NCBI RefSeq assembly: GCF_000332275.1
Contig: NZ_CM001776.1
Coordinates: forward strand, 2,128,789 to 2,192,788
Direction of reading: 5' to 3'
Origin: Synechococcus sp. PCC 7336
Lineage (GTDB): Bacteria > Cyanobacteriota > Cyanobacteriia > Thermostichales > PCC-7336
DNA: 64,000 nt
Shown here: positions 45,993-52,828 of the stretch, piece by piece
How positions within the stretch are numbered: the stretch's first letter is position 1
Layout of the letters: each line of letters begins with the position of its first letter
Made by a program: the position numbers and the translations under genes
The notes under the pieces: model-generated
The model's database searches: none
Told to the model about the DNA's origin: nothing
Seen by the model: the letters and a program-made list of their open reading frames with translations, nothing else

Positions 45993-46778
45993 TCACTCCA
46001 GCTCGTCGGGATTCACCCCCAGAGAACGGAGATACGCCAACAGTTTCTCTTTCTCCTGACGTTCCTGCTCCAGTAACGACTCTGCCTGCTCGGCCCGCTG
46101 ACGCTCCCAAGCCGCCGTCTCCGTATCGGTGGGAATCCAATCCCCAGCGCTGCTGTACCAGCGCAACCAAGCCCGCTCGATTCCCTCGTATTCCCCCTGC
46201 CAAACCCCCAGCCCCAAGTCCAGTGCTGGTATCCAGAGTCGCCGTTCCGCGATCTCCAATGGCCGATAGCTTCCCCCCACTAACTCGAACGCCCTCAACT
46301 GGTCCGTATAGCGATCGAACACCACGTAGTAGGGCACTTTTAGGATTTGTTCGTACACCTCCCACTTGGTGGGAGGACGGTCGGCCTGACGCTCGGTTGC
46401 ACCCAAATCTTCCCGCTCCGTGCCGGGGGATAGCAGTTCGACCACCACAGAGGGACTCACCCTTTCCTGCCAAATGACATAGCTCAGTCGCAGGTCAGCT
46501 CCGCCATACAGGCGGGGGACGCCCAAGACCAAAAACCAGTCGGGTCGCTTGTGCCAGAGGGGATGGTGGATGTCGTAATAGAGGTTGAGGTCCGTGCCGG
46601 TAAAGCGGTTGTCTGGTGCGTATTGGGAGAGGCGCAGGGTGGCACTCAAAAGCTGGGGTTGCAGGTTGTGAAATTCGTCAGGCAAACCGGGTTCTGCGGA
46701 ATCTTCGCTGGGAAGATCGTACATGCTGGGCAGGGGGTTTCGCTGGTACTGCGGCAGGGAAGGTTTGGCGGCGGTCAT
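45993..46778 (-). CDS. Uma2 family protein, array copy 1 (no heptad insert)
   Basis: A 261-residue Uma2/DUF820 protein with a PD-(D/E)XK-like core: LPDEFHNLQPQLLSATLRLS, KRPDWFLVLGVPRL, SPSVVVELLSPGTEREDLG, and VPYYVVFDRYTD. A C-terminal coiled-coil follows (ERQRAEQAESLLEQERQEKE) and the end is SLGVNPDELE. This is the most distal of three tandem copies; it has no extra 21-bp repeats. N-terminal details (EDSAEPG, ATERQAD) agree with copy 3 rather than copy 2, indicating gene conversion. The family's role is unknown. Confidence 0.85.
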   Translation of the reverse strand: MTAAKPSLPQYQRNPLPSMYDLPSEDSAEPGLPDEFHNLQPQLLSATLRLSQYAPDNRFTGTDLNLYYDIHHPLWHKRPDWFLVLGVPRLYGGADLRLSYVIWQERVSPSVVVELLSPGTEREDLGATERQADRPPTKWEVYEQILKVPYYVVFDRYTDQLRAFELVGGSYRPLEIAERRLWIPALDLGLGVWQGEYEGIERAWLRWYSSAGDWIPTDTETAAWERQRAEQAESLLEQERQEKEKLLAYLRSLGVNPDELE

Positions 46779-46863
46779 GGGCTGTGCTGCAGGGGGATTG
46801 GCAGAAATAGAGGGGATTTGGCCCTATTGTAACTGGGGGGATTCTGAGGGCGATCGCCTTCCA

Positions 46864-46894
46864 TCAGCTCAGCAACAGCGAGTCATGCGAGAGG
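46864..46894 (-). repeat. Duplicated 3' tail of the ABC ATPase gene, copy 1
   Basis: These 31 bases repeat the last nine codons and stop of the ABC ATPase gene (48867-48897), with one mismatch. The same tail recurs at 47834-47864. Each marks an edge of the tandem duplication unit that carries a Uma2 gene. Confidence 0.85.
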
Positions 46895-46908
46895 ACAAGG
46901 AAGCAGTG

Positions 46909-47748
46909 CTAAGGCCGACCTCGCTCCAGCTCGTCGGGATCCACCCCCAAAGAGCGGAGGTAGGCCAACAAGTTCTCTTTATCCTGACGCTCTTGCTCGA
47001 GCAACGACTCTGCTTGTTCGGCCCGCTGTTGCTGTTGCTCGGCCCGCTGTTGCTGCTGCTCGGCCCGCTGACGCTCCCAAGCCGCCGTCTCCGTATCGGT
47101 GGGAATCCAATCCCCAGCACTGCTGTACCAGCGCAACCAAGCCCGCTCGATTCCCTCGTATTCCCCCTGCCAAACCCCCAGCCCCAAGTCCAGTGCTGGT
47201 ATCCAGAGTCGCCGTTCCGCGATCTCCAATGGCTGATAGCTTCCCCCCACTAACTCAAACGCCCTCAACTGGTCCGTATAGCGATCGAACACCACGTAGT
47301 AGGGCACTTTTAGGATTTGTTCGTACACCTCCCACTTGGTCGGAGGACGGTCGGCCTGACGCTCGGTTTCACCCAAGTCTTCCCGCTCCGTGCCGGGAGA
47401 TAGCAGTTCGACCACCACAGAGGGACTCACCCTTTCCTGCCAAATGACATAGCTCAGTCGCAGGTCCGCTCCGCCATACAGGCGGGGGACGCCCAAGACC
47501 AAAAACCAGTCGGGTCGCTTGTGCCAGAGGGGATGGCGGATGTCGTAATAGAGGTTGAGATCCGTGCCGGTAAAGCGGTTGTCTGGTGCGTATTGGGAGA
47601 GGCGCAGGGTGGCACTCAAAAGCTGGGGTTGCAGGTTGTGAAATTCGTCAGGCAAACCGGGTTCTGCGGGATCTTCGCTGGGAAGATCGTACATGCTGGG
47701 CAGGGGGTTGTGCTGGTACTGCGGCAGGGAAGGTTTGGCGGCGGTCAT
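46909..47748 (-). CDS. Uma2 family protein, array copy 2 (two heptad units)
   Basis: A 279-residue paralogue nearly identical to copies 1 and 3. It differs at EDPAEPG, YQHNPLPS, DIRHPLW, GETERQAD and GSYQPLE. Its C-terminal coiled coil holds two RAEQQQQ heptads encoded by 21-bp units at 47019-47060. The end is DPDELERGRP, shared with copy 3 but not copy 1. It has its own start with the same upstream sequence as the other copies, so all three may be expressed alike. Confidence 0.85.
   Translation of the reverse strand: MTAAKPSLPQYQHNPLPSMYDLPSEDPAEPGLPDEFHNLQPQLLSATLRLSQYAPDNRFTGTDLNLYYDIRHPLWHKRPDWFLVLGVPRLYGGADLRLSYVIWQERVSPSVVVELLSPGTEREDLGETERQADRPPTKWEVYEQILKVPYYVVFDRYTDQLRAFELVGGSYQPLEIAERRLWIPALDLGLGVWQGEYEGIERAWLRWYSSAGDWIPTDTETAAWERQRAEQQQQRAEQQQQRAEQAESLLEQERQDKENLLAYLRSLGVDPDELERGRP
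47019..47060 (-). repeat. 21-bp in-frame tandem repeat, two units
   Basis: Unit CGGCCCGCTGTTGCTGyTGCT encodes RAEQQQQ on the minus strand. Two units here, five in copy 3, none in copy 1. This is the main length difference among the Uma2 paralogues. Confidence 0.9.
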
Positions 47749-47833
47749 GGGCTGTGCTGCAGGGGGATTGGCAGAAATAGAGGGGATTTGGCCCTATTGT
47801 AACTGGGGGGATTCTGAGGGCGATCGCCTTCCA

Positions 47834-47864
47834 TCAGCTCAGCAACAGCGAGTCATGCGAGAGG
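47834..47864 (-). repeat. Duplicated 3' tail of the ABC ATPase gene, copy 2
   Basis: The same 31-base tail of the ABC ATPase gene as at 46864-46894, here between Uma2 copies 2 and 3. The distances between the three tails are 970 and 1033 bp; the 63-base difference equals three 21-bp units. Confidence 0.85.
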
Positions 47865-47878
47865 ACAAGGAAGCAGTG

Positions 47879-48781
47879 CTAAGGCCGACCTCGCTCCAGC
47901 TCGTCGGGATCCACCCCCAAAGAGCGGAGGTAGGCCAACAAGTTCTCTTTATCCTGACGCTCTTGCTCCAGCAACGACTCTGCTTGTTCGGCCCGCTGTT
48001 GCTGCTGCTCGGCCCGCTGTTGCTGCTGCTCGGCCCGCTGTTGCTGCTGCTCGGCCCGCTGTTGCTGCTGCTCGGCCCGCTGTTGCTGCTGCTCGGCCCG
48101 CTGACGCTCCCAAGCCGCCGTCTCCGTATCGGTGGGAATCCAATCCCCAGCACTGCTGTACCAGCGCAACCAAGCCCGCTCGATTCCCTCGTATTCCCCC
48201 TGCCAAACCCCCAGCCCCAAGTCCAGTGCTGGTATCCAGAGTCGCCGTTCCGCGATCTCCAATGGCCGATAGCTTCCCCCCACTAACTCGAACGCTCTCA
48301 ACTGGTCCGTATAGCGATCGAACACCACGTAGTAGGGCACTTTTAGGATTTGTTCGTACACCTCCCACTTGGTGGGAGGACGGTCGGCCTGACGCTCGGT
48401 TGCACCCAAATCTTCCCGCTCCGTGCCGGGGGATAGCAGTTCGACCACCACAGAGGGACTCACCCTTTCCTGCCAAATGACATAGCTCAGTCGCAGGTCA
48501 GCTCCGCCATACAGGCGGGGGACGCCCAAGACCAAAAACCAGTCGGGTCGCTTGTGCCAGAGGGGATGGTGGATGTCGTAATAGAGGTTGAGGTCCGTGC
48601 CGGTAAAGCGGTTGTCTGGTGCGTATTGGGAGAGGCGCAGGGTGGCACTCAAAAGCTGGGGTTGCAGGTTGTGAAATTCGTCAGGCAAACCGGGTTCTGC
48701 GGAATCTTCGCTGGGAAGATCGTACATGCTGGGCAGGGGGTTTCGCTGGTACTGCGGCAGGGAAGGTTTGGCGGCGGTCAT
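47879..48781 (-). CDS. Uma2 family protein, array copy 3 (five heptad units)
   Basis: A 300-residue Uma2 paralogue whose N-terminal 220 residues agree with copy 1 and C-terminal end with copy 2. Its coiled-coil segment holds five RAEQQQQ heptads from a 21-bp repeat at 47989-48093, which should lengthen a helical stalk after the nuclease-like core. It lies 86 bases downstream of the ABC ATPase stop on the same strand and could receive read-through from that operon. Confidence 0.86.
   Translation of the reverse strand: MTAAKPSLPQYQRNPLPSMYDLPSEDSAEPGLPDEFHNLQPQLLSATLRLSQYAPDNRFTGTDLNLYYDIHHPLWHKRPDWFLVLGVPRLYGGADLRLSYVIWQERVSPSVVVELLSPGTEREDLGATERQADRPPTKWEVYEQILKVPYYVVFDRYTDQLRAFELVGGSYRPLEIAERRLWIPALDLGLGVWQGEYEGIERAWLRWYSSAGDWIPTDTETAAWERQRAEQQQQRAEQQQQRAEQQQQRAEQQQQRAEQQQQRAEQAESLLEQERQDKENLLAYLRSLGVDPDELERGRP
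47989..48093 (-). repeat. 21-bp in-frame tandem repeat, five units
   Basis: Five near-perfect units of CGGCCCGCTGTTGCTGCTGCT, each encoding RAEQQQQ. Repeat purity is high, which suggests recent expansion and a potential for phase-neutral length variation, because 21 is a multiple of three. Confidence 0.93.
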
Positions 48782-51619: not shown

Positions 51620-51811
51620 GGTTAGGCCGGAGTTGATTCGGTTATACCCCAGATTGGGGATGTTCTTAGCAGGGGAATCTGCGTTTCAACTGCGATCCCC
51701 AAAATCTAAAGGCTTTATTGAGCCATAGTGGTGACTCATTTAAAGGTCGGCCATAATAGTGCCAAAGTGGCCCCAACAGGGGTCGATTACTCCATATTTA
51801 TGGTGACCGCT

Positions 51812-52216
51812 ATGGACAAGGTCAGAATATACACCATCAAGCGCCAGTTGGGACTGCCCAGGTGCCAGCCAATTCTCGATGCTTGTAACGAGCTGAGAAT
51901 TCCGGTGAAGACGGCTAGCAGCACGTTAACGAAGGCACAGGCGTTACAGGTGGTGGAGTGGCTGCAGGCGGAGACTGCGAAGCAAAAGGTCCAGCCTACG
52001 GCGGCTCCCGATCGGGGCAGTAATGGTGCGCCGGAAATCTATAAGAATGGCAATCGCTCGTTTATGTTGAAGGTGACTGGCCTGAAGGGGGCGGGAATGC
52101 GCAAGGCGGTGATGAATATATCGGTGCCGTTTGGTCGTTTGGGGGCTGAGATTCAGCGGCTGAATCGGTCGAATGCAAAGATTTTAGAGGTGAATACGGT
52201 TTGGTCGGACAAATGA
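51812..52216 (+). CDS. IF2N-like / CpcD-like two-domain protein
   Basis: A 134-residue protein with two recognisable halves. Residues 3-52 (KVRIYTIKRQLGLP, ILDACNELRIPVKTASST) match the IF2_N-type domain found at the start of translation initiation factor IF-2. Residues 80-131 (RSFMLKVTGLKGAGMRKAVM, NISVPFGRLGAEIQRLNRSN, AKILEV) match the CpcD phycobilisome-linker domain, also seen at the N-terminus of cyanobacterial FNR. A Gln/Ala/Pro linker joins them. ATG at 51812 has GGTGA five bases upstream; earlier in-frame starts exist. No phycobilisome gene is adjacent. Role unknown. Confidence 0.7.
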   Translation: MDKVRIYTIKRQLGLPRCQPILDACNELRIPVKTASSTLTKAQALQVVEWLQAETAKQKVQPTAAPDRGSNGAPEIYKNGNRSFMLKVTGLKGAGMRKAVMNISVPFGRLGAEIQRLNRSNAKILEVNTVWSDK

Positions 52217-52321: not shown

Positions 52322-52828
52322 TTGACTAAAGCTGTCGAGATACCCCCGACCGTTGATGTCTTCTTGCAAGAGCTTGCCACCATTCAACAAGCGGGGCCAA
52401 AGCGTATTGCTATTCTGGGAAGTCGCCACGTCCCCATTACCCATCAATACTTGATTGAAATGCTCAGCTACGCGCTGGCATTAACGGGCAACCGCATGCT
52501 CACTTCGGGGGCTCAAGGGACCAATTCTGCCGCTATTCGAGGCGCTATGCGGGCAGACGAGGGCGCGCTGACCGTGATTTTGCCCCAAAGTCTAGACAAG
52601 CAGCCCGCAGAGTCGCGCGCCCAGCTCGAAAGCGTGATGCACTTGGTGGAGCATCCCGAAAATGACCATCTGTCGCTGGCTGAGGCCAGCTCCCTCTGCA
52701 ATACCGAAATTATTAGTAAGTGCCAGCAGCTCATTTGCTTTGCGTTCCACGACAGTACCACCCTGCAAGAAGCCTGCGCCTATGCTGAAGACCAACATAA
52801 AGTGGTGACGCTGTTTTACTTCGATTGA
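52322..52828 (+). CDS. DprA/SLOG-like Rossmann protein
   Basis: A 168-residue protein with the nucleotide-binding Rossmann fold of the DprA/LOG superfamily: KRIAILGSRHVPITHQYLIE, then MLTSGAQGTNSAAIRGAM (SGxxxG phosphate loop), ALTVILPQSLDKQP and CNTEIISKCQQLICFAFHD. It lacks the winged-helix of full DprA, so it is not an orthodox DNA-processing protein. Family members bind nucleotides or process them; role unknown. The frame begins at TTG 52322, since the nearer ATG at 52308 hits a stop after five codons. Confidence 0.7.
   Translation: MTKAVEIPPTVDVFLQELATIQQAGPKRIAILGSRHVPITHQYLIEMLSYALALTGNRMLTSGAQGTNSAAIRGAMRADEGALTVILPQSLDKQPAESRAQLESVMHLVEHPENDHLSLAEASSLCNTEIISKCQQLICFAFHDSTTLQEACAYAEDQHKVVTLFYFD

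Follow-up and report, generated by a model that had tools for sequence, protein, structure and literature searches.

A single cyanobacterial protein joins an IF-2-type N-terminal domain to a CpcD phycobilisome-linker domain

Introduction

Why would the small domain that begins translation factor IF-2 stand at the head of a phycobilisome-linker domain? The question is raised by a short gene of Synechococcus sp. PCC 7336, located in the 64,000-nucleotide stretch of DNA analyzed here (the window; Table 1). CpcD domains are not confined to linkers: in the long form of ferredoxin-NADP reductase (FNR), a CpcD domain docks the protein on phycobilisome rods (PMC6479007, PMC10322944), and FNR is the CpcD-docked cargo described in the cited papers besides the linkers themselves. 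We asked whether both domains of the new protein are genuine, whether the combination occurs elsewhere and what such a protein might do.

Results

The gene is an intact two-domain fusion

Only an IF2_N-type and a CpcD domain were detected in the 134-aa protein. The GTPase and fMet-tRNA-binding domains of IF-2 are absent, as are, in a domain search, the FAD- and NADP-binding domains of long FNR. A truncated or duplicated IF-2 is ruled out by the missing GTPase and by an intact IF-2 elsewhere in the genome (1071-aa frame), and a contig-edge artefact by the assembly itself, a single contig of 5.07 Mb. Further in-frame starts lie upstream of the ATG at 51812, at 51800 (ATG) and 51728 (GTG), but translation from 51812 opens with MDKVRIY, in agreement with the beginnings of cyanobacterial IF-2 N1 domains, which makes it the start that matches them. 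The protein carries a net charge of +12, and its pI compares with 4.2-6.8 for the products of adjacent genes. Both halves are basic: the CpcD half by itself has a pI of 11.5, and the IF2_N half one of 9.5, against ~5.7 for the IF-2 N1 domains checked.

Table 1. Features of the fusion locus, in positions of the window
Feature	Position	Strand	Description
IF2_N-CpcD fusion gene	51812..52216	+	134 aa, 14.8 kDa, pI 10.25
IF2_N-type domain	51812..51982	+	residues 1-57, beta-alpha-alpha-beta-alpha in model
Linker	51983..52051	+	residues 58-80, pLDDT <50, predicted flexible
CpcD (PF01383) domain	52052..52213	+	residues 81-134, beta-beta-alpha-beta, short beta1-beta2 loop
SLOG/DprA-like gene, downstream of fusion	52322..52828	+	context only

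The N-terminal half is homologous to the N1 domain of cyanobacterial IF-2

Scored against Pfam IF2_N, the isolated N-half (residues 1-65) gave 12.9 bits (E 0.098) and did not reach the cut-off of 25.3; judged from its sequence, our claim is one of homology to cyanobacterial IF-2 N1, not of Pfam IF2_N membership by cut-off. A profile built from 17 cyanobacterial N1 domains gave 47.3 bits; among 2000 shuffles the highest score was 10.3. BLAST with the whole protein matched IF-2 N-termini (first 50-80 residues) in dozens of cyanobacteria at ~30-51% identity, with E down to 3e-7 per genome, and the N-half shares 45% identity with the IF-2 N1 domain encoded in its own genome (L051). The IF-2 N1 signature residues VRIY and SST are retained. 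The same genome also encodes a stand-alone 77-aa IF2_N-like protein (L053/L065, G000:C1:3728088-3728318), whose Pfam match (0.0011) is under the cut-off.

The AlphaFold model of the whole protein was weak (pLDDT 56 overall, up to ~73 in the C-half), and the N-half was therefore modelled separately, reaching an AF2 pLDDT of 88.6. The top Foldseek matches of this model were solved bacterial IF2 structures (4b43/4b3x, 4b48), with TM of 0.81-0.82, rmsd of 1.4-2.0 A and ~30% identity. The list also holds the DNA-binding folds pSK1 Par and RacA, matches that may reflect a common small helical fold. VIA-align of the whole model listed matches to the C-half alone and was uninformative for the N-half.

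The C-terminal half is a CpcD domain with a shortened contact loop

Pfam CpcD matched residues 81-128 close to its cut-off of 27, scoring 25.7 bits in hmmscan (E 1.5e-5) and, when the whole genome was searched, 27.1 bits. A CpcD profile of the order that left the query out gave 49.9 bits, the best of 2000 shuffles reaching 4.6, and a profile from bona fide linkers only gave 33.9 bits for the C-half (best of 2000 shuffles, 7.4). In a model of moderate confidence, this half forms strands at 82-90 and 99-106, a helix at 107-119 and a strand at 123-131. The first 27 PDB matches returned by Foldseek are all phycobilisome linkers (probability 0.98-1), and VIA-align reached a Z of 7.3 at best, aligning residues 81-132 with an rmsd of 2.9. 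A Z below 8 is not decisive alone, but taken with the sequence evidence it is, and on sequence and model together we assign the C-half as a CpcD domain.

The domain departs from the usual pattern at two points: its beta1-beta2 loop is shortened, and the GG that usually precedes the last strand is replaced by NA, in the context RSNAKI. Two genuine rod linkers of the same genome, L006 and L008, also have the short loop, so the loop alone is no argument against docking.

Both halves score far above shuffles, which rules out a spurious ORF or chance likeness. The earlier note had read this frame as an IF2N-type domain joined to a CpcD domain; lineage profiles, shuffles and Foldseek agree, and we regard the fusion as confirmed. 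Profile searches returned IF2_N and CpcD for the respective halves, as that reading anticipated, though with Pfam alone the result was marginal.

The fusion was found in one genome

No second protein with both domains was found in 390 Cyanobacteriia genomes, the nine genomes of the order, GTDB contigs or plasmids. In this search a fusion was expected to give a pair of matches within a single short frame; a strongly diverged fusion could escape it. The short IF2_N frames of other genomes that were inspected proved to be pieces of IF-2, cut or frameshifted, none with CpcD. Among the hundreds of genomes searched, the full fusion thus apparently occurs in this one alone, which rules out a widespread family. 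The host is the sole species of its own family in the genome set, and its closest relatives make up one further family within the order. A literature search for IF2_N together with CpcD found no paper, and the fusion is apparently an undescribed variant on the theme of CpcD-tethered proteins.

The adjacent genes encode an ABC transporter, a SLOG protein, PyrR and an AI-2E transporter, with no antenna genes among the neighbors. Gene order around the fusion is not conserved, and neighbor-based inference gave nothing: the downstream SLOG/DprA-like gene is kept through the order at 77-80% identity without the fusion gene alongside. One genome of the set, G005, carries two copies of that gene. Elsewhere in the window, three Uma2-family genes stand in tandem (45993-48781, minus strand). 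Codon adaptation of the fusion gene is 0.04, against 0.11-0.16 in neighboring genes, and no promoter-like site was found for it.

Occurrence in one genome, weaker codon adaptation, unconserved gene order and the missing promoter-like site are what would be expected of a recent chimera with no function, or of a decaying gene. We nevertheless hold this to be very improbable. The 134-codon frame is intact and the core residues of both domains are conserved; the halves have diverged to 40-45% identity from their nearest relatives yet keep their fold signatures, which points to long maintenance. With a single sequenced species of the family in the set, the lack of the fusion in other genomes says little.

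The order has a second family of CpcD fusions, and its FNR lacks CpcD

The genome encodes rod linkers with PF00427 and CpcD as well as short CpcD/ApcC-type linkers, so sites at which a CpcD domain could dock exist. A plain capping role would suit the size, charge and fold of the fusion, which resemble those of small linkers: its CpcD domain would cap a rod or the core, as rod-capping CpcD proteins end rods (PMC10696076), and IF2_N would act as a steric plug or stabilizer with no partner of its own. We consider this improbable, since ordinary small CpcD/ApcC-type linkers are already present and IF2_N keeps VRIY, SST and its fold, none of which a mere plug would need.

The closest CpcD domains (34-40% identity) belong to an order-specific family of ~150-175 aa that we call L005-type, in which an ~80-residue N-terminal domain, without a Pfam match, is joined by a linker to a CpcD domain at the C-terminus. 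Members are L005 of the same genome (G000:C1:673141), L014-L019, and L059 and L060 (MAGs SM2_3_1, SM2_3_2). They occur in most genomes of the order and constitute a second non-FNR CpcD fusion; most share the short loop. This kinship raises the alternative that the fusion belongs with the L005-type family and carries a repurposed CpcD-type domain, one that binds a target outside the phycobilisome, so that the fusion would not be an antenna protein. The N-terminal domain of the family with its lack of a Pfam match, the absence of antenna neighbors and the diverged GG motif fit such a reading. On the other hand, L005-type CpcD domains reach ~50 bits with Pfam CpcD and nothing indicates that they have departed from the antenna, and a tree of 18 CpcD domains did not settle where that of the fusion belongs. 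We judge repurposing possible but unlikely.

All nine genomes of the order encode a short FNR that has no CpcD (in the host, L061, G000:C1:1972074-1972994). The earlier note's remark that the linker domain anchors FNR is therefore not applicable here. A short FNR without CpcD has also been described in Gloeobacteria (PMC10696076). Because the FNR of this order lacks CpcD, FNR may have acquired that domain only after the order split off, and here FNR would be no competitor for a rod-end site.

IF2_N also heads proteins unrelated to translation initiation

Polyphosphate kinase 1 (PPK1) bears an N-terminal IF2_N in ~14 of 291 genomes, all of one cyanobacterial family; in the PPK1 of the other cyanobacteria searched, the match lies wholly downstream of IF2_N. 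Examples are L054 (G132:C5), L055 (G201:C82) and L056 (G126:C194), with ~11 more genomes, and we found no paper on IF2_N with polyphosphate kinase in cyanobacteria. A viral contig (IMGVR_UViG_3300047552_000782, 1471-1962) encodes a 164-aa protein, L064, that also starts with IF2_N (Pfam 1.4e-8). Its tail is possibly ubiquitin/ThiS-like by eye, and it adjoins a ThiF-like gene and an ORF in which a JAB-like HSH motif was likewise picked out by eye. With a second CpcD-fusion family in the order and IF2_N on PPK, both modules are shuffled.

In E. coli, pull-down, cross-linking and tracking revealed direct binding between IF2 N1 and the C-terminal portion of NusA, but both the N-terminus of IF2 and the C-terminus of NusA are poorly conserved across species (PMC12297416), and NusA is for this reason no more than a candidate partner. 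The earlier note had offered two roles, a link from antenna state to ribosomes or RNA and a simple protein-binding module. Our analysis favors the latter, since IF2_N also sits on PPK and a phage protein and, among the functions we found for an isolated N1, protein binding (to NusA in E. coli) has the best support.

A physical link between the antenna and gene expression would have IF2_N bind NusA, a ribosomal subunit or factors associated with RNA polymerase while CpcD senses phycobiliprotein, free or assembled, for example coordinating antenna synthesis with assembly. The NusA interaction and the similarity of the N-half to the host's own IF-2 N1 speak for it, and the basic pI of that half could favor RNA. 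Given the poor conservation of both partners, and with IF2_N on polyphosphate kinase speaking for a general module, both binding and sensing seem quite improbable. Equally doubtful is the version in which an antenna-docked protein uses its IF-2-derived domain to tie phycobilisomes to transcription or translation (for example through NusA or 30S) and so reports antenna or rod-end status to gene expression.

Discussion

We favor, at a rough probability of 0.45, a small two-module adaptor in which CpcD would dock at the phycobilisome and a flexible linker would display IF2_N to a partner. The C-terminal CpcD would bind where a phycobiliprotein/linker site is left open. The likeliest place is the distal tip of a rod, where the domain would lie within the hexamer cavity and face the PF00427 domain of a rod linker. 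Docking would follow the mode of long FNR, whose CpcD domain was placed by cryo-EM at the distal rod end against CpcC2 PF00427, while a flexible linker carries the remainder of the protein (PMC10322944). The ~23-residue linker would present the N-terminal IF2_N, a compact protein-binding module, and the partner would thereby be brought to the antenna. The analysis itself establishes the gene, the two domains with their fold class, the strongly basic charge, the confinement to one genome and the presence of rod and core linkers alongside; docking, recruitment through IF2_N and the identity of the partner are what we infer here.

In favor of the adaptor we count the homology and fold of both halves, the strongly basic charge, IF2_N on PPK1 and on a phage protein, and NusA binding by E. 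coli N1. Against it, there is no genomic tie to antenna genes, and the nearest CpcD relative lies in a family without an assigned function. The loop that is truncated here is among the three elements through which the CpcD domain of CpcC1 makes contacts (PMC10322944), and its truncation counts against docking at a rod, as does the change of GG to NA. The linkers of the genome are not uniformly basic (pI 6.2-9.3), codon adaptation is weaker than in the neighbors, and with one species carrying the fusion, selection cannot be gauged.

If a second kind of CpcD-docked cargo is real, rod ends would be a general landing platform, and an IF-2-domain cargo would make a coupling between the antenna and gene expression directly testable. 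The shuffling of IF2_N onto PPK and a phage protein bears on the still unsettled role of N1 in IF2.

Among known systems, long FNR (FNR-L/FNR3D, PetH with CpcD) offers the same plan of a CpcD domain, a flexible linker and an unrelated functional domain, but its cargo is an enzyme rather than IF2_N and its CpcD is N-terminal rather than C-terminal; docking on rods is described for long FNR and proposed for the fusion. The small CpcD/ApcC capping linkers (PF01383) share the fold and homologous sequence of residues 81-134; unlike them, the fusion has an 80-residue IF2_N-bearing head, a short beta1-beta2 loop and RSNAKI for the usual GGKI. IF-2 begins with the homologous N1 domain (PF04760), with the same VRIY, SST and fold, followed by a flexible linker, whereas the fusion has neither GTPase nor tRNA-binding domains and is basic where IF-2 N1 is slightly acidic. 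In the L005-type proteins the closest CpcD likewise sits C-terminally behind a different domain, yet that N-terminal domain is unrelated, and the family is spread over most genomes of the order, the IF2_N fusion being confined to one. The IF2_N-PPK fusions, finally, also place IF2_N at the head of a protein unrelated to translation initiation, but they carry an enzyme as cargo, belong to another cyanobacterial family and have no CpcD.
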